Source: Isoetes taiwanensis (Eukaryota; Streptophyta; Lycopodiopsida; Isoetales; Isoetaceae). Taken from it: DNA of 64,000 nucleotides. Shown here piece by piece: positions 1-63,095 of the stretch. Within the stretch, counting starts at the first letter, position 1. Each line of letters opens with the position of its first letter. A program made the translations under genes and the position numbers. The stretch spans positions 11,414,546-11,478,545 of the forward strand of contig JAJEKV010000009.1 in assembly GCA_021234155.1 (NCBI GenBank), written 5' to 3'. A model generated the notes under the pieces. The model searched no databases and was not told where the DNA came from. It worked only from the letters and a program-made list of their open reading frames with translations.

Positions 1-599
1 AGGGTGAGATCTCAGTTGTAGGATGATCTAGCACATCCTTTTTTGGTGTACTATTTGATGCACCTTGAATGTCAGCAAGATGGCCATAACCTAGGTCTTC
101 AAATACAGCCTCTGGCACCTTTCCATTGCAACCATAAATACATTGTCCTCCTCTCAACAATGAACAATAAGCTATATGATACTCATGTTGGCAATTCAAT
201 GCTTCACATGTATAAAAAAGATCATGCACTAATAACTTATCTCGCATAATTGTAAAGATATTAAATGTGGCGCTCCCCGAACCTATAAATAAGGGAAATT
301 TCCCTTCCATAACGACTCGATCACCAAAGAAAGGTCCTTCATCTAACTCGGACCACTCATGATGGTCAAATGTCCGAGGAAGGACACGAAGGTGTCATTT
401 GTTCCATGCCTCCTCTAGGATATTCTATATTGTGAAAGCATACGTACATATTAGTACTAGCAACAATATATATGAAATAATATGCCACCACGAAGGGTGA
501 CTCATCCATCATAAAGGCAACATAATTGAGCACTAGACAACAGACACAATGGTGATATAGAAGTAGGAGCCTTGCTGATCGTAAGGCTCCCTTAGCATG
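1..599. other. No gene seen; AT-rich repeat debris
   Basis: Only short open frames without recognisable domains. A short palindrome of the form AAGGGAAATTTCCCTT lies near 290-306. I see no gene or RNA structure here that I can support. Confidence 0.5.
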
Positions 600-1260
600 C
601 TATACTCGATCACCGTGTGTGGGCCGGGTATAGGTCTGACACCCCTGGACTGCAGGCACCATCCCCAAAGGACATCTTGGGCTTGATAGATATGGGTGAG
701 CTTGTTCTATGCATTTTGGGGAGTTAAAGTCGGGTAAGGACCTCTCGGGGGCTGCACCTATCATATAGGGGGTACCTCATGTGCGTGCAAGAGGTTGCCG
801 AAAACTCCTTTGTATATGCCTTAAAGATTTTTTCAAAACCTCTATTTTGGCCATATATTGTACTAGAGTCGCCTAAAAAAAACCTCTAGGCAAAAGTATA
901 TGTATGGTTCAAGCCCAAATTAAACCCTTTTGGGTTATTCATCTAAATTGTACGACTAAAGCTATGTGAACTCCCATTGACGAACCTAGGTCCTCTAGCT
1001 GCCCGTGAAACTATTGTGCTCTGAGAAGACTTGTCCCATTCCTGCCTCATCGGACCAGGGAGATGCAACCTAGAGTAGTCTCATAGGGTGACTCCATGAG
1101 ATTACGTCTCCGGAAGGCTATAGTGACGCCATAGTATGTTTCAACCCTTTTGCAAAGTGTGTATAGGTTGGGCAGATGGAGTGAACTACCCTAGCCAATG
1201 TTCTATGCCAGCCAACGCCCTTTTGAGCCTAAGTCCAGGTAGATTTGATGTATTTTTATG
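600..1260 (+). repeat. Dispersed repeat, copy A (inverted relative to 8180-8540)
   Basis: Several blocks of this stretch match the reverse complement of 8180-8540. Examples are the block around 1042-1070 (CCTCATCGG...GGAGATGCAACC), the block around 1155-1215 (TTTTGCAAAGTGTGTATAGG, then GGGCAGATGGAGTGAACTAC) and the block around 612-640. They are similar but diverged, as expected for two old copies of one non-coding or LTR-like repeat. No coding domain is visible. The flank near 486-505 also resembles 8060-8078 in direct orientation, so the copies are not simply collinear. Confidence 0.6.
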
Positions 1261-1393
1261 TATTATATTAAACTGAAGAGAGTCGAGTGCATTCAAAAGG
1301 CTTTGAAAAAGATGACAAAAGATTGTTTACCCAATTTAACATTCATCGTCCTCATTTGTATGCCATAGAACAATTTTAAAGCTCCTTGAGTTA

Positions 1394-1710
1394 GAATAGA
1401 ATGGCATTTTGCCGCCATTCTTCTGCGTAATCCATGACCCTCTGAGAAGTCATGGGGGCACCAAGAATGGTCACCCCAATGCCATTTCTACCCCACCGGA
1501 TTCTCCTTCTGTGTTTTGGAGGGGTGATTTGTCATTCTTGACAAGAATGGTTCAAGAAGATGCAGGAACGGTAACCCACTTACCTTGACGTTATGTGGAA
1601 CGGGAAGGGGAAGCAAGAATGCTTCCCCCTGACCTGCAGAATCCGGGAGCGCCGTGTAGGCGCGACCGGATTCCGGTCGCGCCTACACGACCCACTTACC
1701 TTGACGTTAT
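1394..1710. repeat. Cluster of short perfect hairpins and a 21-bp direct repeat
   Basis: A compact run of inverted repeats: AGAATGGC/GCCATTCT (1398-1421), CATTCTT/AAGAATG (1533-1549), GGGGAAGCA/TGCTTCCCC (1607-1628), and a perfect palindrome with 18-bp arms around one base (1653-1689, arm CGTGTAGGCGCGACCGGA). A 21-bp direct repeat beginning ACCCACTTACCTTGACG occurs at 1574-1594 and 1690-1710 and brackets the last two hairpins, like a target-site duplication. This could be a small foldback or MITE-like element. No coding capacity. Confidence 0.6.
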
Positions 1711-3239
1711 TGTCAATTGCGATTTTGATGTATGTCTGTTAGTACATTGTTATGGCTTTATGCGACCTTAGAGGAGCGGCTCAAGGCTCAACAAGAATTT
1801 GCCTAGCATATCTTATGCATAAAGCGACATTTTATATGGGTTACATAAATAACATTAAAACTAAGCCTAAGGCGATGGATCTTAAGCAATTGGTTCAAGA
1901 CATGAACCGTCCGGACAGCCTGATCAGCCGATCTGCTTCGTAGCAAGCCAATACTGAGACCCATGTTTTGCATTTAAGGGCATCTATGACAGATCGATGT
2001 TCTTAATATATGCATGTTCTTGAAACTAGGCTACATCTTCTAGATTGCCATTATGTGATAGAATGTCCACAAGAATGATACCAACTCGTGACATGAGGTA
2101 AAGAATGCCCTTCTTATATATCTCTATCAAATAAACAGACGTGCAAGACTCAGACAAGATAACATGCGATCATCATCTTCATCTCACAAGCCCAAAATCT
2201 GCTTTAACACATCAGAACCCTCTAAACATATCTTTAAAATAAGAACAGAGTTAACTTATCAAACCCACAAGACCTGTTTAAAATCTCAGACATGCTCAGC
2301 AATAGCAAGCAGATAAAGAGGCAATGTTGGATTGTGGCTAGACTCAGAGCATCGAAATGACAAGGACCTTCCCATGAGTGAAACTACTTAAGTGTTAAGT
2401 AGATATATTCTTTGACATATGGCATGGCAGTTTTGAGTAGCATAACAACAATCCAGCTCACAAGAATCACGACGCATAGACACTGACTCAGTGATCCCAT
2501 CTTGCCATGTCCACATAGAATGTTCTGCATTGCAGACATTGTGCATCCCATACCATATAATCCTGTTGTTTAAGAACATCATATACTACTACCCAAAAGC
2601 ATGAACATATCTCCATAAGGACATTATAAAAAGAGCATTGCATGCTTGCAGATGTCATTTCCCTATTTTTAACACACTATATCATAATACATAGTAAACA
2701 TGGTATACTAGTTGGGCTTTCCAATTAATATCTGCACATTACCAAGTAGAAAGAGTATGCCATGGGCATTAATAGATTTAGATGTGATGTTTGTGTTAGC
2801 CACGGTAATAATGGAAGAGATCAGTTGCAACAGCTGGTTACTAGGACCACGTAATTTGGAGGCCGAAGGTTCGTCTACATTACTTGTAATGCCATGTTGA
2901 GGTCCGCATATATAATTGGATGTAAAGAAAAGATCTTATATTTAATATCAAAGTGGTTGTTCCATGTAATTTTCTACTAGGATGCTCAAAAAGCTTGGCC
3001 GGCGGCCGGTGCATTTTAAACTCCATTTGCAATTGATCCAATGGCACATATGTAAGGTTAGCATGATGATGTCAGAATCTTGGACTACTCTTTGCAGAAA
3101 CTATCACTTCGACACACTGGCCAAGGATTATGCAGCACACCAATAGATCATCTTGACCACATTCCATCTTTAGGCTATATTAAGATTCATTGAGAGGAAA
3201 GAACTTCTGGAAAAAATGGGCATTCTTTTGCTATAGTTG
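1711..3239. other. No gene seen
   Basis: AT-rich DNA with scattered short frames on both strands. None has a recognisable domain, and I found no splice-compatible chain of exons. I can support no feature here. Confidence 0.5.
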
Positions 3240-3437
3240 CCTGAACAAAAGCAAGCAGAACAACATGAAGCATACTCTGAAGTGCAGTTCCATATGTAGC
3301 TTAATAAAATGGGCTGGTCTACTTGCAATTCTGATAGGCGCTTCCTGAACAAAAGCAAGCAGAACAACATGAAGCATACTCTGAAGTGCAGTTGCAATGT
3401 AGCTTAATAAAATGGGCTGGTCTACTTGCCATTCTGC
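3240..3437. repeat. Tandem duplication, two copies of ~94 bp at 104-bp spacing
   Basis: The sequence starting CCTGAACAAAAGCAAGCAG at 3240 recurs at 3344 and runs with only a few differences to about 3437. The repeat creates twin short minus-strand frames that share peptide segments, but nothing suggests a real protein. It lies downstream of the 3' end of the PPR gene. Confidence 0.85.
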
Positions 3438-4041
3438 TTCATTGTGCATACTGGCACGTAACAGAGTTAAGCTCAGAATCTAGGTGCCAAAGAACAGGAA
3501 AATATCAAATCACTTAATGCACTGAGAATAGCGACATTCCTAAGATTAAAACATGAAATGAAAAAGCAGATGTACCTTCCCGTGTTTGGCTTTAAGAACG
3601 CCCTGTTCTAGAACAGAATTACATTCTCCGCCCGCCAAAAAAACTTCATATATCAATATCGGCTTCTTCTTTAACATATAAAACTGTGAGCACCTGCATG
3701 CAAAGGACTACCGGCTAACTAGAAATATCCATTGAAATCAGATTAGAAATAAACCTGGAAACAAAGAATCTCTACTTTCTAACTGTTACTCTTAGCTTGA
3801 TTCTCAGCCATCAAAATCTACAGCAGGCCAGACACCTACCATCCAAACAAAAGATTCTTATGAATACTCTAAAACCTCATACGGCATCCCTAGGATTTGC
3901 CCTTCGGACAACCCAGAAATATAGATAGATTTAACCTCCATGTATATATGTCTACTGCCATTGTCATTTTGATGCCATATTACTAAATTGCTTTTGAGAG
4001 TTTTATGTTGGTTGGAATTTCCTTGGCATACAAGCTAAGCA

Positions 4042-5883
4042 TCAAGTGAACAAAACAGTTCCAATGTTTTCTTCTTTGTTCAAACTAGCATAGGTTCCAC
4101 AAGCTCTTAGAAAGCTCACAAGTGCTTCAGCGCCAGTTTCTAATGGAACCTGAATAATAAAATCCTCTGCTTCATCCAGTAATCCTACACGTGCAAGAAG
4201 GTCTACAATACAGTGATAATGCTCATCTACTAGAAAAATCCCATAGCTTGGTTTTGCTGATATAAACTGATGGCATCCCTCATCCACCCGCATACAGTGA
4301 CTGCATGCACAGAAAACACTGGCAAGGGTTGCGCCATCAGCCTTCATGCCCAATAATTGCATTTCATTGAAGATTTGCAAGGCCATACCCCCTTGACCAT
4401 GTTGAGAGAATACTGCAAGCATAGCATTATAAGTCACCAAAGTTGGGAGCTGAACTCTACAAAAGGCTCTATATGAATCACACAAGTATCCATGCTTGCC
4501 ATATACATTCACTAGGGAAGTCCCAACAAGTGTATGTATTTCCAAGTTATGATGAAGAACATAAGATTCTAACCAGATACTTCGAATTAAACTGGATGAA
4601 ATAGTGCCTCCTTCAAGTAGGTTGATAAAGGTTATACTATTTGGCTTTGAACCCTCCTCCTGCATCTGCTCAAAAACATCAATAGCTTCCTTGGAATTCC
4701 CCTCTTGACTATACATGGCAATGATGCTATTCCACGAAACTATGTCTTTTTTGGACATACTACCGATCACCATTTGAGCATCCCCCCTGCTACCACACTT
4801 GCTATACAAGTTAAGAAGTGCATTTCCTACAAAAAGATCTGACCCTAGATGGCTATGCACAATAGAAGCATGAGTGAACTTACCCTCTGCAATAGACCCT
4901 ATGGCTGTGCACGAATTTAAAACGCTAACATATGTCACCTCATTGGGCGACAGTCCTTCTAACTGCATCTGGCTAAGGAAAAAAAGAGATCTATTATTGT
5001 TACAGTTTTCAGTACAAGCTGTAATTATCGCATTCCATGACACAACATCTCTTTGAATCCATCCATTAAAAACGATACATGCAGCCTCAAAAGATCCAAA
5101 GTTCCCATACATACTAATAAGTGCATTCCCTATAACCACATCAGTAGCAGCCCCATTCTGCATTGTGCAAGCATGGACCATCTTACCCTCTGAAACTTTT
5201 ACCAACACAGAGCATAGATGAAGAAGCGTAGCAAATGTAAATTTATTGGGCTTGACAGAATTCAGCCTCATTTGTCGGTACCGTAGCAAAGCCTCTCTTT
5301 CGCTTCCATTATGAGCACAAGCTGTGATCATTATAGTCCAGCTGTGTGAATTTTTTCCAGGAATGGCATCAAACACCATCCTTGCAAACTCAAGCGCATG
5401 ACATTTGCCATACATCTCAACCAGTAGGTTCCCCAGAAACCGTTGCTGCCCATAACCACGTTTTACTATGAGAGTATGTATTCTCTTCCCCTCTGCCAAG
5501 GCCCCTGCAGTGCCACATTCCCGTAATAGAATAAGAAAATCCTGCTGGTCCAACAACTCAACTTCCACCTTTAACTGCATATTTAGACTAATCAATTTCT
5601 CCTCCACATCGTCTGCATTAGCACCTTGAGCTACATCCAATGATTCTGGATTAGAATCAATTCTTCCCCCTGTGGACTCTGCCAGGGAATTATAGCTGTT
5701 GGAAACCCCAAGAGCCTGCGCTCGAGCATGGCTTTGTTGCCCAGCAAACTGCATCCGCTGGTGGAAGTTAGGGTAGCAAGCTGCCAAGGGTGAATTTTGA
5801 GAGGCCCAGTGCGTGGGCGCTATTCTCAAACCATCACAAGTTGGATTTCTCTGCCAAATTCGACAAAGGGTGTGTAAGAGCAA
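4042..5883 (-). CDS. PLS-class pentatricopeptide repeat protein without E2/DYW domain
   Basis: One intact intronless frame of 613 residues. PPR proteins bind organellar RNA in a sequence-specific way; PLS types act mainly in RNA editing, processing or stability. The first ~110 residues hold no repeats and begin MLLHTLCRIWQRNP, basic and without acids, compatible with organelle targeting. From about residue 115 on, P-, L- and S-type units follow each other, with hallmark pieces such as GKRIHTLIVKRG, VKPNKFTFATLL, RDVVSWNAIITAC, LSPNEVTYVSVL, KDIVSWNSIIAMYSQEG and SKPNSITFINLL. The last recognisable unit (DEHYHCIVDLLARVGLLDEAEDF) resembles the PPR unit before the E domain. The protein ends ~25 residues after RACGTYASLNK, so it has no E2 or DYW deaminase domain. 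An editing role would need a partner in trans. The start chosen is the first ATG of the frame. The specific target is unknown. Confidence 0.93.
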   Translation of the reverse strand: MLLHTLCRIWQRNPTCDGLRIAPTHWASQNSPLAACYPNFHQRMQFAGQQSHARAQALGVSNSYNSLAESTGGRIDSNPESLDVAQGANADDVEEKLISLNMQLKVEVELLDQQDFLILLRECGTAGALAEGKRIHTLIVKRGYGQQRFLGNLLVEMYGKCHALEFARMVFDAIPGKNSHSWTIMITACAHNGSEREALLRYRQMRLNSVKPNKFTFATLLHLCSVLVKVSEGKMVHACTMQNGAATDVVIGNALISMYGNFGSFEAACIVFNGWIQRDVVSWNAIITACTENCNNNRSLFFLSQMQLEGLSPNEVTYVSVLNSCTAIGSIAEGKFTHASIVHSHLGSDLFVGNALLNLYSKCGSRGDAQMVIGSMSKKDIVSWNSIIAMYSQEGNSKEAIDVFEQMQEEGSKPNSITFINLLEGGTISSSLIRSIWLESYVLHHNLEIHTLVGTSLVNVYGKHGYLCDSYRAFCRVQLPTLVTYNAMLAVFSQHGQGGMALQIFNEMQLLGMKADGATLASVFCACSHCMRVDEGCHQFISAKPSYGIFLVDEHYHCIVDLLARVGLLDEAEDFIIQVPLETGAEALVSFLRACGTYASLNKEENIGTVLFT

Positions 5884-16798: not shown

Positions 16799-19249
16799 AT
16801 GGAGCACGGTGAGACTAGTGCAGGCGCACATACTGTAGCAGGACAGGCAACTCCTATGGAGGAGGAACCTGATGTACGAGGGCTAGCTGCTCGTGTACAG
16901 GAAACCCAGAAGAACCTGGAGACCATGCAGATGAAGTGGGGCGAGGACTTGCTGGGTGTGTAGCAAAGCCTCAAGGCAGTATTGGACACTCAGACTGCTA
17001 TGAGAACTGTATTGGAGACCCTTGCTGGCACGGATGGCCTAGGAAAGTCTGCGGAAAGAGTTCCGGATTGAGCAAGGAGGACATCCGCAGTCTCGAGCGC
17101 ACAAAGATCCCAGATTGGGATGGGAAGGGCACTGCTGAGGAGGCGATGGCTTGGATTGACAAGCTTGAGACCTTCTTTGAGGCTACCAATAAAGGGGATA
17201 AGGCACGGTTGTTCATTGCGCAGATGCGGCTGAAATCAGACGCCTATAATTGGTGGAATGGCCCTACCATGAAGAAGGAGGTGAATAGCTGGTCCGATTT
17301 CAGGAAATACTTTATTGGGGAGTATGTACCTCAGCATGATGCTCGTGATGCGCTCGAGAAGTTGCGGTACTGTAAGCAGACATGTTCTCTTAGTGCTTAT
17401 ATCAATAAGGTACGGGGTTATATCCATAGGGTTGGAGACTTGTCCGAGGCTCGCCCAAAGTCTGGAAACATTACCTCTGCAACAAGTGCGAGTTTGTGGT
17501 CTATACCGATCATAAACCATTAAAATTCCTGCAAAGCCAGGCCGAGGTAAGTCCAAGGCAAGCAAGGTGGTTGGACTTTCTTTTCAATTTCATTTTCACG
17601 TTGAACATCTTCCCGGGAAAAAGAATCCTGTTGCTGATGCTCTTTCTAGGGTTCAGGAAGTAAATGTGATGGTTCAATGTGAAATTGCTTTGGTGTCACA
17701 GATTAGGCAAGCATATGACTTGGACGCCTATATTTTGAGTATGCAGCATCTATCCAAGTTACCTGATGCTTGGATTCTGGTATCATAAGGGACGTATTTA
17801 TGTTCCGGCTGTAGACACTTTGAGAAAGCAATTATTGAGCGAATTTCATGATGTACCGTATGCTGGGCATGGAGGTGAGTGGAAAACCTATGAATCGCTC
17901 AAGAGAATGTTTTACTGGCCTAGTTTGAAAGAGGATGTGATATGGTGCTCGGGGGAGTGGCCTTGCATGGAACAATATCAAGTAAGAAAGCCGTCCAGTA
18001 TGCCTAAGTCTTGATATTATCAAAGAGAGAGCTAAAAATAAACCTTGACCTTTATTTAAAAGCAAAAAGGCAAAAAAAAAAGGTATTGTTACCTATAAAT
18101 AGAAGGACAACTTTGAGACGTGATATCTCCGCGACCACAACTCAGAAATCGGCGATCCTTACCTTGTTGGAAAGCCCTTGAAGTCTAGTTTCCATATTGG
18201 CTTGGTTGTCCATAGATTCCTTACAGTTGGAAAGTTATGCCCAGAAAGGTGCATAGGGGTCTAAGCTGACTGCACAGCTAAATCTGCATCTTCCTACGTT
18301 GATGATGAGCCTAGCTTTGATCTACAGTATTTTCCCTAGTTCTTGCTTGATCATATCATTAGGAGGAGTTCCTGTAACACCAGTGGTTGGTGGCTAGAAA
18401 GAGCTTGTTCTTATATAGTCTTGCGGAGTAGCTTGACTTGGTGGCATCTCTTTTAGTTGGTCCGGTTGGGTGGTAAATCGAGTACCCTGTGGTGTTTTAC
18501 TTTCTAATAAGTTGATGAGTTTGCAAGAAGGACAGAGCATCCGTAACAGGATGTGCTGGAATATGTAAAAGTTTGTGAGACTTGTCAGCAGGTTAAAGCG
18601 GGTCGAGGCAAGACTCCAGGGCTTTTACAACCTCTGCCTGTGCCAGAGGAGAGATGGAGTGAAATCTCTATGGATTTCATTGTGAAGTTGCCTCGTACTG
18701 TGCATCACTATACTCAGATACTTGTCATTGTGGATAGGTCGACAAAGTATGCACGCTTTATACCTCTGACAAAGAATGCTGATGGCTTGGCAGTGGCCAA
18801 GGCTTATATGCGGCATGTGTTTCCTATTTTTGGATTACCCAAAGCTATTGTAAGCGATCAAGATGTGAAATTCACTGGGAACTTCTGGCATGAATTGTTC
18901 TCTGCATTAAAATGCACTCTTCAGTTCTCTAGTGGAGATCATCCGAAAACGTATGGGCAAACTGAAAGAGTGAATCAGATTCTGGAGGATATGCTAAGAT
19001 CTTATGTGGCCACCCAGCAATCCAGATGGGGGGACTATTTGCCAATTGTAGAGTTTGCTTACAATAATGGGTTCCAGCAAAGCATCAAGACTAGCCCGTT
19101 TGTGGCTATGTTTGGGAGAAATCCCAGAGGACCTGCATCACTTGGTTTTGAAGGGCTAAAAATTGATGCTGTGATAAGTATGCTTGAAGGCATGGATGTG
19201 ACACTTGGTTTGTGTCAATTGCATATGAGACAGACCCAGGATCGGGCAA
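16799..19249 (+). pseudogene. Deleted Ty3/gypsy gag-pol (gag, RNase H, integrase)
   Basis: Gag begins at the ATG at 16799 (MEHGETSAGAHTVAG) with an in-frame TAG near 16961. It continues in another frame to the capsid-like core (AMAWIDKLETFFEATNKGDK, SWSDFRKYFIGEYVPQHDAR). Near 17450 the sequence jumps straight into the end of RNase H (KVWKHYL, VVYTDHKPLKFLQSQ, FPGKKNPVADALSR), so protease and reverse transcriptase are deleted. The zinc-binding integrase part follows (17766-17942: FHDVPYAGHGGEWKTYESLK). It is interrupted by a ~0.6-kb insert and resumes at 18549 with CETCQQVKAG and the integrase core (WSEISMDFIVKLP, IVDRSTKYARFIPL, IVSDQDVKFTGNFWHELF). The element stops at 19249, where a CACTA end begins. 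It is non-functional. Confidence 0.92.
17941..18540. mobile_element. ~600-bp non-coding insertion in gypsy integrase, 8-bp TSD
   Basis: The integrase frame reads KED-V up to AGAGGATGTG (17931-17940) and resumes exactly at AGGATGTG|CTGGAATATG (18541 on). The 8-mer AGGATGTG is thus duplicated around a ~600-bp insert with no coding frame. The insert starts ATATGGTGCTC and ends GAGCATCCGTAAC; its ends are weakly inverted (GTGCTC against GAGCAT). An 8-bp duplication fits a hAT-like non-autonomous element, but the class is not certain. Confidence 0.75.
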
Positions 19250-19274
19250 CACTACAAGAGAATGAGCATTTTTT

Positions 19275-19555
19275 GTCAGAAAAATCGTCAGATGGTCTTC
19301 ACAAAACAGAGAACTGTCCAGACACTACTGGCTGATGATCTATCTGACGATATCGTCAGGAAAAGCGTCAGAAAATTCGTCAGAGAAAACGTCAGAAAAA
19401 ACGTCAGAAAAATTGTCAGGAAAAGCGTCGGAAAAATTGTCAAGAAAAGCGTCAGAAAAATCGTCAAAATTTTCATCGCCAACATCATCAGACTTATCAT
19501 CAGACTTTTCGTCGCCGTAATCGTCAAGGAATCGTCAGAATCATCAAGACTTAAG
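19275..19555. repeat. 12-bp periodic subterminal repeat array of the CACTA-like element
   Basis: About 16 consecutive units of 12 bp of the type GTCAGAAAAANC (examples GTCAGGAAAAGC, GTCAGAGAAAAC, GTCAAGAAAAGC), degrading to ATCAGACTTATC and GTCGCCGTAATC. The period is a multiple of three, so all plus-strand frames are open and read as VRKS/VRKI or SEKT/SGKA tetrapeptides. These open frames are by-products of the repeat, not genes. CGTCAGA is a candidate transposase-binding motif; its inverse TCTGACG occurs at the other end. Confidence 0.85.
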
Positions 19556-53290: not shown

Positions 53291-53990
53291 GTGAGTAGAC
53301 TATGATGAATACTTTGACAAATCTAAGGGGAAGAAAAGAACTTGTTTCATATTAACTCCATTCCTCGTGTCACATGCTTGTTATCAATGTCCGTCTGCGG
53401 TATTAACGTCTATGGGACATCTTTATATTCTGGTCAAGTTAGTGGCTTCTAGAGAAGAACTTCCTGCATTTGTCTATGAAGCACGACCTACAACTCAAAT
53501 TCACACAAGGTCCTGCCATAAGTAGATAGTTCTCAGCTAGAAGCATGGTTGCAAGCAGATGGAGGCAGCGATCTATAGTGGTCCAGAGTAGTGAAGAGGA
53601 TATTAATCACCATCATGCAATTGAACTTCAGCCTACAAGGCATGTCTTCCATGAATACACCTTCCGTTGAGGAAATTCAGTCAGAAAGGATCCACCTTAT
53701 CATATATGGCATCAAACAGGTTTGGGCGAAGACAATTCAACTATAGAAGATGAGTTCGTTCCTTTTGTACACACATCTGGTTCTTGTTCTACTATTTCAT
53801 TCTCCTTGTATATTCGAAGAGTAAAACTCATCCAATTCTTCTTATATAGCTTCTCATGGGCAAGGGAAATACTTGCACTCTAGCATGTTGAAGGACAAGA
53901 GAGAGATTTATTGCTATGTTAGTAGCACAATAATTGGCATAGAAGCATGTCAAATGCTTACCGAGTGTTTAAATAAGCTTCTAACAAGGT
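53291..53990. other. No clear gene; possible PPR-like remnant at the right edge
   Basis: No domain recognised to 53890. At 53910-53990 one frame reads VSSTIIG, IEACQMLTECLNKLLTR, faintly like a PPR unit. That would fit with the PPR pseudogene starting immediately beyond the TTAA element at 62651, but the similarity is too weak to assert. Confidence 0.35.
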
Positions 53991-54012
53991 TTAAAATGAA
54001 ACGCACTTATTT

Positions 54013-54454
54013 AAGAAGTGCGTTTGAAAGATTCCTTTATAAAAATTGAAAACTTAAAAAAAAACACACAAAATAGGGAGCAAAATAGATTGTTGAGCAA
54101 TTAGCATTCGGGATACCCCCAAAAAAGCAACATTTTTAAAGCTTTTTCATTTTAAAAGAAGAGCAAAAAAAAAAATGCTTGTTTTAAGGAGAGAGACATT
54201 AACTTTGATAACTCAGTAAGTATTTATTGTTAAAAACAGAAGAAAATATAGATTGTTTTTTTGCAAGCTTAATAGAAGTACTAAAAAAGTCAAACATTGG
54301 AAAGACAAAGAGTGTGAAATCCTGGAGCAAGAAAGAGTTGTTTCAATTAAGCATTGTTAGAGAGACAAAGCTTTCAGTTTAAAAATCTTCATCAAAATAA
54401 ATTATAATATTACTTAGCACATAGTTTACAATGAAAGTGGTTAAGAACTCTGTC
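54013..54454. other. Left interior of the TTAA element; no gene
   Basis: AT-rich, with A-runs at 54060 and 54170, between the TIR and the 3' end of the methyltransferase relic. Nothing recognisable. Confidence 0.4.
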
Positions 54455-54463
54455 TGTATAAAT

Positions 54464-57400
54464 TTATACGAGAGGTGGCTCTTCCCAGTCCACAGGACTC
54501 TCGTACCCTTTGGAATCTGGCTCTTGCGAGCTTACAACAGCAAGGACGCCTCCTTCTGATTCCAAACCTATTGGCACAGGCGGTTTCTCTGGCTCGGGCA
54601 CCACAGGCTCCAAGTCAACAAACTCCACCTCCTCATCTCTTCTTCCTGTAAGTGGAGGTCGTATTTTACGTGTAAGTGCCCTTAGCATCGCCGCACCGCT
54701 TCTTTGCTCCCGTTCCCTCGTTTTCATCGTGAAAGGATTCGCAAAGAGCTTATCCCGTCCCGATGAAGCTTACTTTATCTGGGTCTATGTCGACGGAGAC
54801 GACATTGCGCCCCTGCTTAAGGGTGCAAACTGCTGTGGTGCCTGATCCAGAAAAGGCATCTAGGATCCAGTCTCGGTAGAAAACCATCAGATCAAATTAT
54901 TAATAAGCCGGCGTAACCCGATAATGGGACACCACAGCGCCTTGTCGCCGTGGGTCTCTTAATTTCGCAAAAACAAAAGAACTGAAATGCATTGCGAGGG
55001 AGGAGTCTTTTCATTCTCCGTGTTAAAATGAACCATGGTTTTTTGGCGTCCGCTACTGTAAAAACCTATATGAAAATGCTCGAAGCTTGACTCACTAGCG
55101 CGGACCACCACCATGACCCTTGACGTTTGTTTTAAGCCTGCCAAGCAATATAGAAATTAGAAATTAGTAAAAAGAAAACAAGGAAAATAAGTTAGCCCAG
55201 TAGTGTGGCGGTATAAACTTATACCACGGTTGCCTTGCTGTATAAATTTATACCACGGCGGCAAGCGTATAAATTTATCTGAGACATTGCCTTTGTTGTA
55301 TAAATTTATACCACGGTTGTTCCAGCCTTTAAAATTTAAACCTTAAGACAGATGTGGTATAAATTTATACCGTGGAGTTACCGTGAAAACAATAAACGTT
55401 AATTGTGAAGCTTACCAAACGCTAGTTTTTGAAGCGGCGTTATGAGACCCCTCCCATAGGTTTAAGCACCGACATCGCCCGGTCGGTCGAGAATGAAAAA
55501 TGATGACCCTCCAGTTTTCAGATGTCGTGACTTCTTTGAGGCCATCCAGGAAAGACCGGACTTGCACGTGAGTGAAAGCCTCCTCATCAAAAGCGCTATC
55601 CTTTATTTTAAATCCATAAGGAATATCTGCAATGCATAATGTAAATTGTTGCTTGTCTAAAAGAGTCCCCACCTTGTACAATCACCCTCAACAACCCCTC
55701 ATTGGGCGTCCCGACCAAATGTGGTAAATCTCTCATATGTACATCAAAAGCGGAAGTGGCGACCTCTCTACCCTGTTCAATTGCCTTTAACCTTTGCCTC
55801 TCTTCCTTGGCCCTACGAACCAGGTTCAAAAATCCAGTGGGTAGCCCCTTCTTCTTGTTCTGTAAGAGTAATGTGAGACAAAGGCACAAACACATAACAT
55901 ATGTTTTGCAAAACTTACCCGACCAATGAAAGTAGCTCACGTGCTCTCGATGATACTTTCTGTGGGTACAACTTGGGTACAAAGTTTGCACTCGTCCCCA
56001 TCTTCTAGGTTGAGCCGCTTCATTAACTTCGGCCGCAAGTGACAATGTCTTTCGATTTGCAAAGGGAAAAAATATTGTAAGACAACAAAAGGTAGAAAAA
56101 AACATGGCATAGCAAGTGAGGCTTACGTTTTAGCTTCCTTGGCCATCTCGTCTAATGTGAATTCTTTGGCAACTACTTTTTCCAACAGGCGAACAAATAT
56201 TTCTTTGCTTTTAAGACCCTGTAACTGCGTCCAGGGTACAATGCTCATATTTTTTTGTTTTGATTCACCACCTTTCTTTGGTTTCTTTCCTGCGTCTTTA
56301 GCTTGTTCTTTGAGCTCCCCATCTTCGAACATACAAAAAATTCTTTCTTGAAGATCCCACACCTGTAAACGGTCAAACGAAGTTTAGTGCTAAATGGCGT
56401 AAGAGGATGGGCACGGCGACTCAACACGGTATAAATTTATACCGTGCCTGGCGGCGGTATAAATTTATACCGTGCCTGTTCGCGGTATAAATTTATATCA
56501 TGACGGTACGGTATAAATTTATATCTGCATGACAATTGCACGTATAAATTTATATCACGACAAACACCGGTATAAATTTATACAATGGGAACGTGCACTA
56601 TAAATTTATCTTTATATAATAGACGCAGTATAAATTTATATACCCCGCCGCAGTATAAATTTATACCTATACCGTGCCTGGTCGCGGTATAAATTTATAC
56701 CGTCAGTAGGCTACTACAAGATTCTAACCACGCTAAACATACTACAAAAGATTGAATTGAATCTTTTACTTACTTGACCATCTCCGCGAAGCTGAAAGTA
56801 GTTATCGTATTGTTTGACGTGACCATAATGGGCTTCTTATCAGAATCATAGCTTCGGGCAACACTTTCCGTCACCACGGGCTTCTCGAAGCTCTTGAAGC
56901 TTATTCTTACGTTTTTGAAGTCCTCTCCATGCATTTGTTTGAACTCCACGTACTCTCGATGCATGAATCTTATCTATTAGGCTCATTTTTAACCTAAAAA
57001 GTCATTGTCAAGATTGTGACTTACGGCAATGACTTTTGCCTCTTCGTGCATGTGATACCCACGTAAATATGGGCTTCCACGCTTTTCCACACCTCGCTAC
57101 GGGTTTCCTCCTTTGAGAGTTCTTTTCTAGCCTTGTAGTGTGTGCCTCCAAGGGCGTAGTAGGTGTAATCTTCAAGTCCGCTTTTTGTAATCCCGCAATC
57201 GATTGCATTGACTTCTATCAACCATAACAACTAGAGGCGACACATGCGCATGAGGATTTCTTCTCATTCTTTGCTTAAGAATGGCCACATGTGCCGCGTG
57301 CAACTTTTCGACCTGCAAAGACTCGACCCCATCTTCATTTTTTGGTGGCCTCTTGATAGTGCTTAGTGTCAAAGAAATGGTTTGTTTGAGCAGTTTGGTT

Positions 57401-58320
57401 TCATTAACCAGCTTGAGAATAGCACTTGACTTATCTGCGGGCTTCACAACGATATACGCTCCGGGGCCTTCAAGAGCTTCTCACACTCCTCTATAGTCAA
57501 GGGCTTTGTTTTTCTAAATTTTTTCTTGGTAGGAGGTCATGTATCTAGTACCGGGGAATGCTTCCTACCCCTTCCCTTTGTGTTGACCGGTTCCTCCTCT
57601 TCTCTCCTCTTCCCTCTTCCTCTTCCTCTTCCTCTTCCTCTTCCTCTTCCTCTTCCTCTTCCTCCTCTTCCTCTACTTCCTCTTTCGATAAGTACAGGGG
57701 TACCATAGACCCTTGACCAACACTTTTTCTTATGCGGCACTATTGACATCGAAATTTCTACTACGATCCCGTAATGGGGTTATGTTAAGAGACTGACGGT
57801 ATAAATTTATACGGAAAGCAACTAAGAATAACTTACAAAGCCGTTCTTGTAATTGTCCGAGATGTAATCGTGGACGTCTTTAGGCTTGCACATGCTTAAT
57901 TTAAACATTTTAGTATTCAGAACATAGTAGACGGGGCCCTTGTCATGGTTGCCCTGCATTAGAACTTCATCATCGTTCTCTGTAGCAACAAGTTTCATAA
58001 TGTCGCCAGCAGGGTAATAATCATCAGACTTGAACTTGCCCTTCCCTGATTTATTGCACAAGTAAAGGTATCGTGATCGGTGGGTTTGCTCTCTCTTGCG
58101 CCCACATGGGACGTACCAAAGTCCGATCCTTTAGTTCATAAGTCCGTGGCTCTCGTGGTGCAACCTTTGATGATGACCCTCACCGAGCACAAACTTGATC
58201 TTAGGGCTGGAAAACGCACGAAAAAAACCATTTTTACATAAGAATATTAACCTTTTTCGAGTTTTTGAAACACAAAAACAGTAGAAAAAGAGGATAAAAA
58301 GGCATAAAATCCACACTAAA
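54464..58320 (-). pseudogene. ParB-like / beta-type amino-DNA-methyltransferase of the TTAA element, decayed
   Basis: A multi-exon gene read from 58320 downwards. N-terminal pieces: GLWYVPCGRKREQTHRSRYL (~58115-58050), DDYYPAGDIMKLVATENDDE, GPVYYVLNTKMFKLSMCKPK (to 57836). Then a Glu-rich repeat (57680-57600) and a helical part ending HVSPLVVMV (57447-57250). Next a ParB/sulfiredoxin-like core: SGLEDYTYYALGGTHYKARK, with AHIYVGIT and HEEAKVIA (57200-57030). GGTHYKAR corresponds to the family's GxRRxxA box. Linker exons lie at 56975-56773 and 56358-56135. The methylase follows: FTLCIADIPYGFKIKD (motif IV, DPPY reads DIPY, 55611-55640), TTSENWRVIIFHS, and after ~700 bp ILDAFSGSGTTAVCTLKQGR then NVVSVDIDPDK (motif I, 54870-54775). 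Order IV before I is that of beta-class N6-A/N4-C methylases. Several frameshifts and a stop make it a relic. Introns carry the palindromes. Confidence 0.75.
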
Positions 58321-59080
58321 TTAACACTTTATTTGTGTCATTTAAGCTGAAACACAACAATATTACGAAAATATTAAGGTTCCTGACCATTCGCTGAGCA
58401 ATCGGACATCAAAAATCTGAAATAATTCTAAAACGGTATAAATTTATACGGCCGAGCAACGGCGGTATAAATTTATACCGCCCCAACCGGTCGGTATAAA
58501 TTATAATTATTGAACCAACCGGTATAAATTTATACCGCTCCTAAACACTTACGGATACCGAAAGTGCTCGAGCGATATAAATTTATACCGCCTCAACAAA
58601 GGCGATAAATTTATACCGATCCAGAATCATCTCTGTGATAAATTTATACCGCGGGGGCTTACACTCTAAATGATTAAAACAAAAGAGAAACTAAAACAGT
58701 ACGGAAAGTAGACTTACGTAGCCATGACCGTATGAACTAGCGTATAGAGGTTCCGGAGAGCAAATAAGAGGGGGTATATAAGGCGGACCTTGGCCCGACT
58801 TCTAAAGCTAGCGTGTATATGGAAAATAGGTGGCCGGGCCGGCTTAAGTACCCACTGCTAAGTGCCGTTTTTGTATAAGCGTTTCTCCATAAAGATTCCA
58901 ATACAAGTGTCTGTGAGTTTTCGTATAAATTTATACCGTGTCTTCCTCCTCTGTATAAATTTATACCATCTCTGTATAAATTTATACAGTCTGCAGCTAC
59001 AAGTTTGCCTTCTCTGTATAAATTTATACCATCCCTGTGTAAACTTTTACCGTCTGCTATTCTGTCGTATAAATTTATAC
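55205..59080. repeat. Scattered palindromic array, CGGTATAAATTTATACCG and variants, ~25-30 copies
   Basis: Perfect or near-perfect copies lie in four clusters: 55208-55370, 56428-56705, 58434-58645 and 58920-59080, with single copies at 54455 and 57800. The invariant core is TATAAATTTATA; most copies extend to GGTATAAATTTATACC. Spacing within clusters is roughly 20-40 bp but irregular, so this is not a simple tandem repeat. The first two clusters fall in introns of the minus-strand methyltransferase. The last two fill the region between the two divergent genes. I saw no such word elsewhere in the window. It is a candidate binding or modification site for an element-encoded protein. Confidence 0.92.
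57590..57690. repeat. (TTCCTC)n hexanucleotide repeat in the methyltransferase coding region
   Basis: About twelve units of TTCCTC. On the minus strand it encodes poly-Glu in one frame and Arg-Gly repeats in another. The Glu frame connects better to neighbouring coding sequence (LYLSKEEVEEEE). Length changes in such a repeat would easily cause frameshifts. Confidence 0.9.
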
Positions 59081-59103
59081 AGTGTGACGCTACCTTTCTG
59101 AGT
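58321..59103. promoter_or_regulatory. Bidirectional promoter region of the TTAA element
   Basis: About 780 bp between the two divergent genes, containing two palindrome clusters (58434-58645 and 58920-59080). The palindrome core TATAAATTTATA includes a TATA-box-like word on both strands, so it could serve as promoter for both genes. A TATATAAGG word at 58775 is another TATA candidate. Confidence 0.6.
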
Positions 59104-62100
59104 ATGGCTCGAGAAAAAAGAACTGCAGAGCCTCCAACTCCTGTTCGCAGGCTTCCTCCTGCAATGACATTCACACCCCCTCAACTGACACCTGAAAGTA
59201 GCCTCGGAAATTCTGCCTCTGATATTCAAACCCCCACTCACGCTGATCTTACTCGGCCACGACCACCTCGGCTTCCACCACCAGTTCAATTTACTCCACC
59301 ACACCCTGCTCCTGAACGTCGTTTGCCCCCACCAATGCGTTTTACTCCACCACAGCCTAGAGAGGTCAGACTACCTCCTCCACTTCATTTTAGTACGTCG
59401 CCCTTAGTCCACCATAGGCTAAATCCCCGGAGGCAAATCACGCCAACTCCATCAATTTCGCTAAATGGTACTACAACAAGTGGGAGCAGTCAGCGACATG
59501 CAACTCCTGTTTTCTACGACACTTCAGGAGCTGGTCAACTACGTCACCAACCTCGATTACTTTTTCCTAGGGAGAGGGAAAGCACCTCCCCTCAGGACTT
59601 GCACACACCAAACCTATCAGCATCTACAAGTACACCTCAAGTTGATCTCTTAGACGAAGAAACACCTCATGTTGATGTCTCAGACGAGGACCTACCAAAG
59701 CCACAAGACTCTATGTTCGAATTCAAAGCCCCTGCAAGTAAGAATCTTAAAGCGTAATTTACACAAGAAAGCATGTACAACTGTTAGAAGAAAGAAACTC
59801 ATGGATCGAGGCTCACTTTTGGGCAACACATACAAAAGCAATCGTTGTTCTCAACGTTGTTTGCTTAAGATTGGACTAAAGGAATTGAGGTTGATTAAGT
59901 GATAGTTACAGTTCAATGACTCTGCTAGACCAAAGGGGCTACTTAGCCTTCAATATTAGGCCGGATGATGGTGAGAAGTTTACTTACACAACTGGGCCAC
60001 CACACCGTCTGTCAAACGGCCTTCAAATTGATTCATGCTTTAGGCGTGAGACGACTTGACCGCCTAAAGAAAAAGGCTTGACAAGAATCCGGGCATTAAT
60101 GACTCACGCCATTCGGAGGCATAACCAGAATTCATGCCCTTCAATGTGTCTCCCGGATGGAAGGTTTCTTTAAGGAGTCTTGTGAGAAACTCCCTAATAG
60201 CCCTATGTACCACTTGAGTGACAATTTCCACGAAAACAAGAAGTCTACGATAATTATAAGGAGATATGTGTTGAGGCTGGAGAACGCTTTGTGCGCTTCT
60301 CTTACTTTATTGTGGCTCGAAAAAGAGTTTTCTCGCGTAGCCATTCCTAGAAAGCATAGAATGTCTGTTTGTGCTACATGCTCTGAATTAAAAGCTCGAG
60401 AGACAAAATGCAAGGACACTTCACACTAAAAGTAAGCTTCCGGGCGTGTTCTTGCCTAGTTCTACTTAAAAGTAGGTTTTTTCCTAAACATATTTTCATT
60501 TCAGATGCATTGAAGGAGAAACTGAACAAGCACAGAGAACAACAATCTTTGGAAAGGAGAAAATTGACAAAACATAGGAAGAAAGCACTGGAACAACCAC
60601 TCAACTACATATCAGTTGTTATTGATGGAATGGACCAGAAGAAGACCACCCTACCACATTTTGTCAATGTGCCTAAGGATCTTCTTTGAAGAAGATTTCA
60701 TACATCTGCATGTTGTTGGTGCTATGGTATTTAATGGAAAACTATCTTGCAAGGCATTTTTGAATTATCCAAACATTCATGCTGATCCAAATCTCACTAT
60801 CACAATATTGAATAAGCTTCTTTCCAATCTAGAACATATACCACCGGTTCTGTATCTTCAGCTAGACAACACGACAAGGGAAAATAAGAATCAGGCGTTG
60901 TTTGCTTACTGTGCTATGCTAGTAGAGAAACAAATCTTCAAGAAGGTGAAGATTGGTTTCCTGCTTGTTGGTCATACACACGACCAAATTGATCAGATGT
61001 TCAGTAGGTTCTCTAAACGTCTTGCACGAAAAAAAGCTCTCAGCCTACCAGCAATGATTGAGGTTATCCAAGATTCCTACAATCCTCGTCCAGACATCGA
61101 GTTGTTGGAAGAAACTTATGATTTCAAAGAATGGATTTTTCGAAGAGATCAACTGGGTCACTGTGCTATTGAGCCCTTGAGAAATATTACATTTCAAATC
61201 GGATCAAAATTTCACTTGTAGATGGCAGGGCCATCTTATAAGGAAAGAAATATGCCACATCTTTGCAGTGGCAGCCAGCAGCAGGTATTCAATTCATTCG
61301 CACCATCCCCAATACTAGTTCCATGCTCTCTGCAGAGCAAATGCCTCTAAAAAGCTTGAAAGAAATCACAAAGAGTAAAAAGGAGGGAAGAGCATTTGAC
61401 TCAAGCAAATCATTGGATTTTATTGAGACAAGTATTCATCGTGCTCTAACCACTTTGGGGAGGCAGATGCTTTATGGTGGCCTCGCTTTTTTTTCAGCAA
61501 CGTGATATTTTGCAAGCTTCATTACAAGGTCGAAGACCAGTTACATTCAACTGGCCATCTAGGCAAACTCTCCCTGTGCAAGTTGATAATCAAGAGGAAC
61601 ATGTAGAGATATTGGCTAGCTCAGATGAAGATGACAGAGTCATGTACAATCGCCCCAGGACGCCGACACAACAAGTTGCTTTCGAGTATCCGGTTCGAGT
61701 CTCGGAGATTCGAAAGGAATGCTCATAGCTGTCCCCGGTGATAATGATGAGTCCGGGAAGCCGTTACGGCTAGCTAAAAGTCTTTGGAGGTAACAAGAGA
61801 GGATGGAATTCCCACTCAACTAAAAAGTGCACCGGATGAGAACAAATGCTGCCCGGTGCTTTTCGATTGGGAGTTATACTTTGGAGATGGTAAAAAAAGA
61901 GTGGGAAAGAGAGCAAAGTCCAAAGCAAATCTTTGGCTGTCATAGATCTATCCGAAGTGAAGGTTCTTGCATATGACTTTGTTCGATTTCGCTGCTAATA
62001 AGTTACGTATGGTCACTCAAACTTTAATAAGGTCAGCATGTGGATTAGACAAACAACCTAGAAAGGTGGCCAAAAAAGATGATGATGAGGACTCACTTGT

Positions 62101-62160
62101 AGACAGTGAGGAAGAAGATCGTTCGAGTACATCCAGTTTTTGAGAGTGAAGTCGAGGATG
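59104..62160 (+). pseudogene. DUF7869-type, DDE-transposase-like protein of the TTAA element, decayed
   Basis: Begins MAREKRTAEPPTPVRR (59104), then a Pro-rich disordered region with repeats of the type RLPPPMRFTPPQP, and an acidic stretch. Later frames give KKLMDRGSLLGNTYKSNRCS, QRGYLAFNIRPDDGEKFTYT, and RLENALCASLTLLWLEKEFS with a Cys pair MSVCATCSELKARETKC (to 60410). The conserved core is VVIDGMDQKKTTLPHF (60616-60663), LQLDNTTRENKNQALFAYCA (60855-60914) and VGHTHDQIDQMFSRFSKRLA (60967-61026). C-terminal: ILQASLQGRRPVTFNWPS, then AVPGDNDESGKP (61722-61760) and an acidic end. These three Asp/His boxes are those of DUF7869 proteins (name from memory), probably an RNase H-fold nuclease. Frameshifts near 59750, 60050, 60430, 60690 and 61230 show it is inactive here. 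It is likely the transposase of the element. Confidence 0.8.
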
Positions 62161-62650
62161 AAGGCTCAAGTGATCGAGGGGATTAAATGAGTCGGAGGAT
62201 GAGATGCATCCTGATCTTCTTTGCAAAATGTAAGTTTGTCCGATGACTCAAACATGTAAAAAAAGAAAAGAGCGGTGTGATGACCGTCCTCCAAAATGTT
62301 CTATATTTTTGACAATTTTGTTCATAATTTTGTACAATTTTCACAACCATGAATATATCACTTCTTTGTCACTCTATTACCCTTGCTATTTTTTTAATTG
62401 CCCCTTTTTTGCTACACTTTATAAAAGTAATTATTTTTTGTTCTAGTTTAGGAGGATGAAAATTGCTATTTGAAATTTTTGCATGAAAGTTATGTTCAAT
62501 CAACCCCTCAAAAATGGTACCTAAATTACTTAAATTGTCACACCTGTCACAAAAAAATCTTAAAAATGGACTTTTTAAGGGAATTTTAGGGAATCTTTCA
62601 AAGATTCCTTTTGAAGTGCGTTTCCAGCAAATAAGTGCGTTTCATTTTAA

Positions 62651-63095
62651 ACTTTGTTTTCTACGAGATGTCATCATGTGGAATGTGATTATTTCAAGGT
62701 ATACAGAACATGGACATGGAAAGAAGTTCCTTCAACTTTTTGCTGAGATGCAACACGAGGGTGTCAACACAAATAAAGCAACTTTTATCTGTGTTTTGAG
62801 TAGTTGTGCGATTATAGCAATTCTGGAGCAACGGAAATAGCTTCATGAATCTATTATTAAGGCTGGCTATGAAGTGGATATTTTAATAGGCAGTTCTATG
62901 ATCAACATGTATGCCAAATGTGAAAGTGTATTAGATTCCAGGAAAGTGTTCAATAGTATGCCTAAGCAAGATTCTGTGTCATGGAATACAATGATTGCAG
63001 GATATATGCTTAATATAGAAATAACAATCAGGCATTGAATATGTTTAGCCAAATGCAAAGGATGGGCTATGTGCAGAATATGGCAACTTGAGAAG
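62651..63095 (+). pseudogene. PPR pseudogene, interrupted by the TTAA element
   Basis: From about 62655 the frame reads LRDVIMWNVIISRYTEHGHG, LQLFAEMQHEGVNTNKATFI, CVLSSCAIIAILEQRK. A TAG (62838) stands where GKQLHE would continue. After it LHESIIKAGYEVDILIGSSM, INMYAKCESVLDSRKVFNSM and DSVSWNTMIAGY are read. A frameshift near 63020 leads to NNQALNMFSQMQRMGY, then a stop. These are PLS-class PPR units (RDVxxWNxxI, MYAKC). The copy begins right at the TTAA duplication, so the element probably inserted into this PPR sequence. Confidence 0.9.

Follow-up and report, generated by a model that had tools for sequence, protein, structure and literature searches.

A DNA transposon family of Isoetes taiwanensis pairing a likely DUF7869 transposase with a predicted ParB-type methyltransferase and arrays of palindromes

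In a 64,000-nucleotide stretch of Isoetes taiwanensis DNA (GenBank assembly GCA_021234155.1, contig JAJEKV010000009.1, positions 11,414,546 to 11,478,545 of the forward strand; hereafter the window), we identified a transposon of 8,676 bp (53983-62658 in window coordinates) which holds, within one pair of terminal inverted repeats (TIRs), the relics of two divergent genes together with clusters of a short palindrome. We propose that it represents a cut-and-paste-type DNA transposon family moved by a DUF7869 transposase with a predicted RNase H-like core, and that its second, divergent gene would encode a fusion of an amino-methyltransferase with a ParB-like DNA-binding module (hereafter the ParB-methylase). 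This protein would bind the element's own parS-like palindrome arrays (GGTATAAATTTATACC here; GTCGATRC-NNN-GYATCGAC in relatives from a second genome, probably that of the fern Azolla) and, once bound, would methylate DNA within or near the element. Such a mark would most likely serve to preserve element activity through resistance to host silencing, or to identify self DNA to the transposase. We consider the chances about even that the ParB-methylase binds the arrays and marks the element for one of these two ends. The features of the element are as follows:

53983 to 62658, no strand: whole element, 8,676 bp
53979 to 53982, no strand: left copy of the target-site duplication (TSD), TTCT
53983 to 54012, plus strand: left TIR, 30 bp, beginning AACAAGGTTTAAAATG
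54457 to 54468, no strand: palindrome TATAAATTTATA over the methylase stop codon
54464 to 58143, minus strand: ParB-methyltransferase gene relic, several exons, with frameshifts and stops
54834 to 54860, minus strand: methyltransferase motif I (S-adenosylmethionine site), DAFSGSGTT
55212 to 55369, no strand: palindrome cluster in a likely methylase intron
55613 to 55630, minus strand: methyltransferase motif IV, ADIPYG
56126 to 56362, minus strand: part of the region aligning with the ParB/Noc DNA-binding domain in the model of a relative (contig L006, below), with VWDLQERIF at 56336-56362
56430 to 56699, no strand: palindrome cluster with 9 exact cores, likely methylase intron
57024 to 57459, minus strand: predicted ParB-type N-domain, with a GGTHYKARKEL box within 57117-57158
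57800 to 57811, no strand: single palindrome, likely methylase intron
58437 to 58648, no strand: palindrome cluster between both genes or within 5' introns
58924 to 59079, no strand: palindrome cluster directly upstream of the DUF7869 gene
59104 to 62143, plus strand: relic of the DUF7869 gene, the likely transposase; Pro-rich N-terminus, then the predicted catalytic core
60568 to 61221, plus strand: DUF7869 domain, PF25273, E=1.1e-52
60615 to 60638, plus strand: putative catalytic Asp box IDGMDQ
60856 to 60870, plus strand: putative catalytic Asp box LDN
60970 to 60993, plus strand: putative catalytic Asp box GHTHDQID
62629 to 62658, minus strand: right TIR, 30 bp, matching the left TIR at 29/30 positions
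62659 to 62662, no strand: right copy of the TSD, TTCT

An earlier note on this DNA had set the boundaries at 53995 and 62646, described perfect 18-bp TIRs and TTAA duplications, and itself named displaced boundaries as grounds for rejection. Inverted ends are indeed present, with an inner part identical at 22/22 positions (53991-54012, plus strand, against 62629-62650, minus strand; two occurrences in the window, chance expectation 0.00), but the match extends 8 bp further outward on each side, past TTAA, to a full TIR of 30 bp (53983-54012 against 62629-62658, 29/30), so that the element runs from 53983 to 62658 and its TSD here is TTCT/TTCT. Throughout the I. taiwanensis assembly (1,658,258,908 bp), the TIR pattern GTTTAAAATGAAACGCACTTATTT with <=3 mismatches gave 1,142 forward and 1,157 reverse matches, against 2 and 4 for a control. 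At the 30 TIR ends read, representing 30 loci that each match the pattern exactly, AACAA lies directly outside the pattern in 30/30 cases with unrelated flanks beyond, and TTAA lies inside the TIR, likewise in 30/30. Among the matches listed, we counted by eye at least 22 plus/minus TIR pairs within 10 kb (at least 13 at 8.3-9.4 kb, at least four of ~2.2 kb, and at least five at 3.5-5.9 kb). Comparison of both flanks for 12 of the 22 listed pairs and the window copy revealed a perfect 4-bp TSD in 13/13, of varying sequence (TCAT, TTCC, CCAA, TCTA, AGAA, TAGT, ATGC, CACT, TGCA, GAAA, TTAT, TTGG and, in the window, TTCT). Further, in L003, a contig from the second genome, deletion of the element with one AACA leaves a single open Ty3-type pol frame running over the junction (assigned to Ty3 by eye), whereas the frame is broken under a TTAA model. 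Together, the AACAA retained outside the TIR ends, the varying 4-bp duplications and the L003 empty site rule out TTAA as the TSD; in I. taiwanensis it belongs to the TIR.

PiggyBac and Kolobok elements, whose TSD is a fixed TTAA, have a 4-bp duplication in common with this element and differ from it in that 13/13 TSDs in this genome are other, varying 4-mers; as the TTAA ends are refuted, a kinship with these families falls on that ground. The window copy is apparently inserted inside a pentatricopeptide repeat (PPR) gene or pseudogene (53825-53982 and 62659-63038), the right flank of which matches PPR_2. This empty site is indecisive on the boundaries, because both models keep the PPR frame and score alike (PPR_2, 3.5e-10 versus 4e-10); for the copies of the second genome, the L003 empty site settled the question.

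Five more full-length copies (L078, L079, L081, L082 and L083) were chosen by TIR spacing alone from the at least 13 listed pairs at 8.3-9.4 kb, and with the window copy they are 81-92% identical. In 6/6 copies, the minus strand shows homology to methylase exon 1 (E <=1e-13) and the plus strand homology to DUF7869 (E <=1e-22), the two being divergent and within the same TIR pair, and the motif-IV exon of the methylase was recovered by tblastn (E 1e-3) in 4/6. With five related contigs of another organism (below), these copies bear out the suggestion of the earlier note that a single transposon holds both genes in divergent orientation. That note had looked to several full-length copies with TTAA ends and both genes intact: the divergent pair within one set of TIRs was found, the ends are not TTAA, and those copies read from I. 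taiwanensis have decayed or are fragmented. The methylase relic of the window also contains an AGGAAG-type microsatellite of 48 bp (57615-57662), which measures 66 bp in L078 and was absent, by the same search, from L079 and L081-L083.

Both relics were recognised by profile, DUF7869 (PF25273, E=1.1e-52) on the plus strand and the N6_N4 methylase (PF01555) on the minus strand, as the earlier note had proposed, and these were the only Pfam families above cut-off in the two genes. PF01555 scored 1.3e-7 for the window read-through, 2.4e-14 for a hand-spliced L003 protein and 7.8e-19 for a Ginkgo protein. Motif IV (ADIPYG) precedes motif I (DAFSGSGTT) on the coding strand of the window, the order of beta-class N6/N4 enzymes, in agreement with the amino-methylase type given in the note. 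Its ParB-like core gains support from a relative in a better state of preservation, for which structural modelling predicts a ParB N-terminal (CTPase) fold and a DNA-binding domain of the ParB/Noc kind, fused to the N6/N4 methyltransferase, and the L006 model matched a Noc-site complex structure. Two boxes, GGSHSAEARR and DHNNDND, are invariant in the five exons of the second genome, and we take them to be linked to CTP motifs. A PDB sequence search with the exon-1 profile returned nothing meaningful. A protein search with the decayed methylase read-through of the window gave no match at E 0.01; with the better preserved exons of the second genome, 7,993 candidates were scored and 105 relatives of exon 1 passed E 0.01, some of them bearing the name of Ceratopteris richardii or, through a Gb_ label, pointing to Ginkgo biloba. 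No Riccia-named protein was among these 105, most of the rows being nameless and the search limited by word matching. One relative, P0175 (Ginkgo biloba by label, 758 aa), is an open ParB-methylase protein predicted without the motif-IV exon, and may be either a transposon gene or a domesticated gene.

For the DUF7869 protein, relatives show little or no variation at the Asp residues of IDG, LDN and GHTHxxxD. In a structural model these residues are placed, by a topology-based assignment, in strand 1, after strand 4 and in the helix after strand 5, respectively, and the core is predicted to be RNase H-like and to resemble DDE/D transposases and integrases. On this model DUF7869 is likely the transposase, and the family would thereby gain a likely function. 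A PDB sequence search with the DUF7869 profile returned nothing meaningful, and no paper naming DUF7869 was found in the literature searched. The protein search gave 131 relatives at E 0.001; among the 120 listed, many are from Riccia, at least two from Adiantum and at least two from Branchiostoma.

Overlooked by the earlier note, the palindrome TATAAATTTATA occurs in 23 exact copies in the element and in none in the remaining 55 kb of the window (expected 0.03). For its 16-bp form, GGTATAAATTTATACC, exact matches number 7,218 genome-wide (control 0), counted irrespective of their assignment to elements. Each of the six full-length copies contains 11-23 exact cores, in largely the same clusters, at positions 467-5,169 of ~8.7 kb. 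This placement bears on a different role for the methylase, in which it would govern transposition and not silencing, marking TIRs or fresh replicas such that the transposase cuts only DNA in the right state. Dam controls Tn10 in a like manner, and the co-occurrence of both genes in 6/6 full-length copies, the apparent purifying selection on both in the second genome (below), and the transposase/integrase-like prediction for the DUF7869 core are all consistent with such control. Given that the palindromes lie mid-element, away from the TIRs where control of this kind would be expected to act, we consider it improbable.

Also identified were 2.2-kb copies with the same TIRs. Two of these, read whole (L080 and L084), are 91% identical and share an interior of their own, in which no gene was detectable by tblastn at E 0.1. 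Palindrome stretches aside, they have ~65 bp of the left end and 157-382 bp of the right end in common with full-length copies, L080 sharing an additional 45-bp piece nearby, and they contain 8 and 6 exact palindrome cores, respectively. The set of cis-acting sequences retained without genes therefore comprises the TIRs and the palindromes. A third 2.2-kb copy, seen as two pieces (L063/L064), also has palindrome cores, and the three copies make up a 2.2-kb non-autonomous family of TIRs and palindrome array without detectable genes.

A DUF7869 profile scan of genome contigs identified 10 loci, of which 8 are contigs of a metagenome-assembled genome (MAG) filed as uncultured Trichormus (ERR2144891); L009 and L010, weak matches in other MAGs, were left out. 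Based on likely introns, a Ty3 element and fern relatives, the MAG contigs are probably eukaryotic host DNA of the fern Azolla (hereafter the fern bin). Contigs L001-L008 and L044-L047 all appear eukaryotic, with likely introns and Ty3 sequence. Five of the eight contigs carry the methylase upstream of DUF7869 on the opposite strand, and the other three (3.7-4.2 kb) start within the palindrome array upstream of DUF7869. Methylase exon 1 was found on 9 MAG contigs, including the five with both genes; C294 and C473, which have the methylase only, were left out of pair counts, and no array-type inverted repeat was found in either. A search of viral contigs gave no match. Long open frames are preserved in L002, L003, L006 and L007 (566-594 aa for exon 1, 873-898 aa for DUF7869), with shorter ones in L008 (278 and 529 aa). 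Ratios of nonsynonymous to synonymous change (dN/dS, NG86) were 0.066-0.132 for DUF7869 in 10/10 pairs; for exon 1 the ratio was computable in 1/10 pairs (0.082), synonymous sites being saturated in the other nine (pS 0.81-0.89, dN 0.08-0.28). These values favour selection on both proteins of the fern-bin copies, apparently of the purifying kind.

Such constraint argues against the possibility that the methylase was captured once and persists as a passenger, the arrays being mere expanding satellite. Gene capture by transposable elements is frequent, and the decay of the I. taiwanensis copies would suit a passenger; we nevertheless regard this as very unlikely, as four fern-bin copies have kept their frames open although synonymous change is saturated, the same gene pair occurs in two genomes, and two derivatives that lack the genes and differ in their interior retain the array.

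The palindrome of the fern-bin copies, GTCGATRC-NNN-GYATCGAC, is a different one, and lies between the genes at a spacing of mostly 31-52 bp. Within the 5.9-Mb MAG we identified 44 sites (37 exact and 7 with one mismatch; control 1), and 44/44 are on 8 contigs with one or both genes; L004 has a third variant. Between the two lineages the ParB region is 30-38% identical. With a ParB module predicted to bind palindromes, a methylase, and arrays that change along with the protein, binding and marking by the ParB-methylase would be the simplest reading. The palindromes could instead be recognised by the transposase or by a transcription factor of the host, the ParB-methylase acting elsewhere. In favour of this, binding to internal or subterminal repeats is known for some eukaryotic transposases, and the arrays lie between divergent genes. 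ParB/Noc proteins, for their part, bind palindromes of similar size; together with the match of the L006 model to a Noc-site complex, the presence of window clusters also in likely methylase introns, and the divergence of palindrome and ParB region between lineages, this leads us to judge transposase or host-factor sites unlikely.

Flank symmetry was examined for a further alternative, that the palindromes work as RNA or DNA hairpins (double-stranded RNA or cruciforms). In L007 the arms vary between repeats (2511-3291) and stay self-complementary beyond the core through changes on both sides, above shuffled right flanks (p=0.0004), which speaks for hairpins. In the window (p=0.92) and in L002 (p=0.97), however, symmetry did not exceed that of shuffled flanks, and the window core is loopless while the fern-bin loops of 1-3 nt are too short without breakage of pairs, which makes a hairpin function extremely unlikely in our view.

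Several observations weigh against binding and marking by the ParB-methylase, or against the family as delimited here. The window copy, L078 and L079 are decayed and the matches in L081-L083 are in pieces, and tblastn (E 1e-3) failed to recover the motif-IV exon in L079 and L083 (2/6 copies). No ParB family was detected by sequence searches. The pairwise identities of the two proteins are weakly correlated among the five fern-bin contigs (r=0.27), and L008, which has both genes, lacks a palindrome array, most of its intergenic region being missing as well. Palindrome cores are exact in 41-66% of cases versus 19-35% predicted from copy divergence, an excess that is biased because sites with >3 mismatches are uncounted. 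Lastly, among the fern-bin copies with both ends (n=3), a clean TSD was found in L003 only; L008 has none, and L006 has TTAA at both ends, which on its own would fit a TTAA-type duplication.

As to what a mark might achieve, an association of N6-methyladenine (6mA) with permissive chromatin is reported for eukaryotes, in a source whose relevant passages mention neither ferns nor land plants (PMC12695648), and the methylase could therefore be an anti-silencing writer. Palindrome binding by the ParB-methylase, methyltransfer, the identity of the methylated base and an anti-silencing purpose are all inferences. More tentatively, and as a possibility that we would not favour, a ParB-type clamp might load at the arrays and slide outward, the fused methylase writing 6mA or N4-methylcytosine (4mC) along the whole element, so that a eukaryotic transposon would have adopted a device of bacterial chromosome segregation. 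If true, this would constitute a sequence-nucleated, spreading DNA mark by which a parasite is told from host chromatin and kept active. More generally, the element may be a parasite that labels its own DNA. If so, plant nuclei would house a parasite with a sequence-specific DNA methylation system of its own, the target sites being in cis and lineage-specific, which would link transposon counter-silencing, bacterial ParB clamps and the disputed 6mA/4mC of plants. Such a reading makes testable the debated existence of a dedicated writer for plant DNA marks other than 5-methylcytosine, and indicates where such marks are to be sought.

Among known systems, the VANDAL elements of Arabidopsis, which are Mutator-like elements, have a transposase of a different family from DUF7869. 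Membership of VANDAL was rejected on the Pfam families above cut-off in the two genes, DUF7869 and the N6_N4 methylase. The VANC protein of VANDAL is the closest working analogue, and the element may work like VANDAL without being filed as such: in the portions of the VANC report considered, a plant DNA transposon encodes an accessory DNA-binding protein, with motif arrays in introns and upstream regions that change between related elements (PMC5735166). In the same portions, and unlike the present element, VANC brings about a loss of methylation and is not described as a methylase, and its motif is 9 bp and non-palindromic (PMC5735166). ParB-methyltransferase fusions of phages likewise combine a ParB-CTPase fold with the N6_N4 methylase PF01555; as far as the relevant excerpts go, these are enriched in phages and prophages, and differ from the gene found here, with its predicted DNA-binding domain, introns, eukaryotic transposon and palindrome arrays (PMC12704722).

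Transposase and DNA methylase are also encoded together by Mariner-2_PGv and Mariner-1_OLpv, DNA transposons of algal giant viruses, which have a mariner transposase and either Methyltransf_26 or a cytosine-C5 methylase with an endonuclease, in viral genomes, and for which the sections drawn on describe no ParB module or array (PMC3627910). Eukaryotic mobile elements with a DNA methylase further include DNMT- and DIRS/Dam-carrying retrotransposons, which bear C5-cytosine DNMT or Dam-like enzymes and for which no sequence-specific array is described in the parts of the source used (PMC5890265). Given these methylase-carrying mariner-type transposons and retrotransposons, the claim of the earlier note to a wholly new type of mobile system needs qualifying, on the cited parts of both reports (PMC3627910, PMC5890265). 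No report of the ParB-methylase combination in a plant-nuclear DNA transposon was found in the literature searched.

Elsewhere in the window, 18547-19332 contains an open frame with the integrase-like letters of a Ty3-type retrotransposon, recognised by eye.

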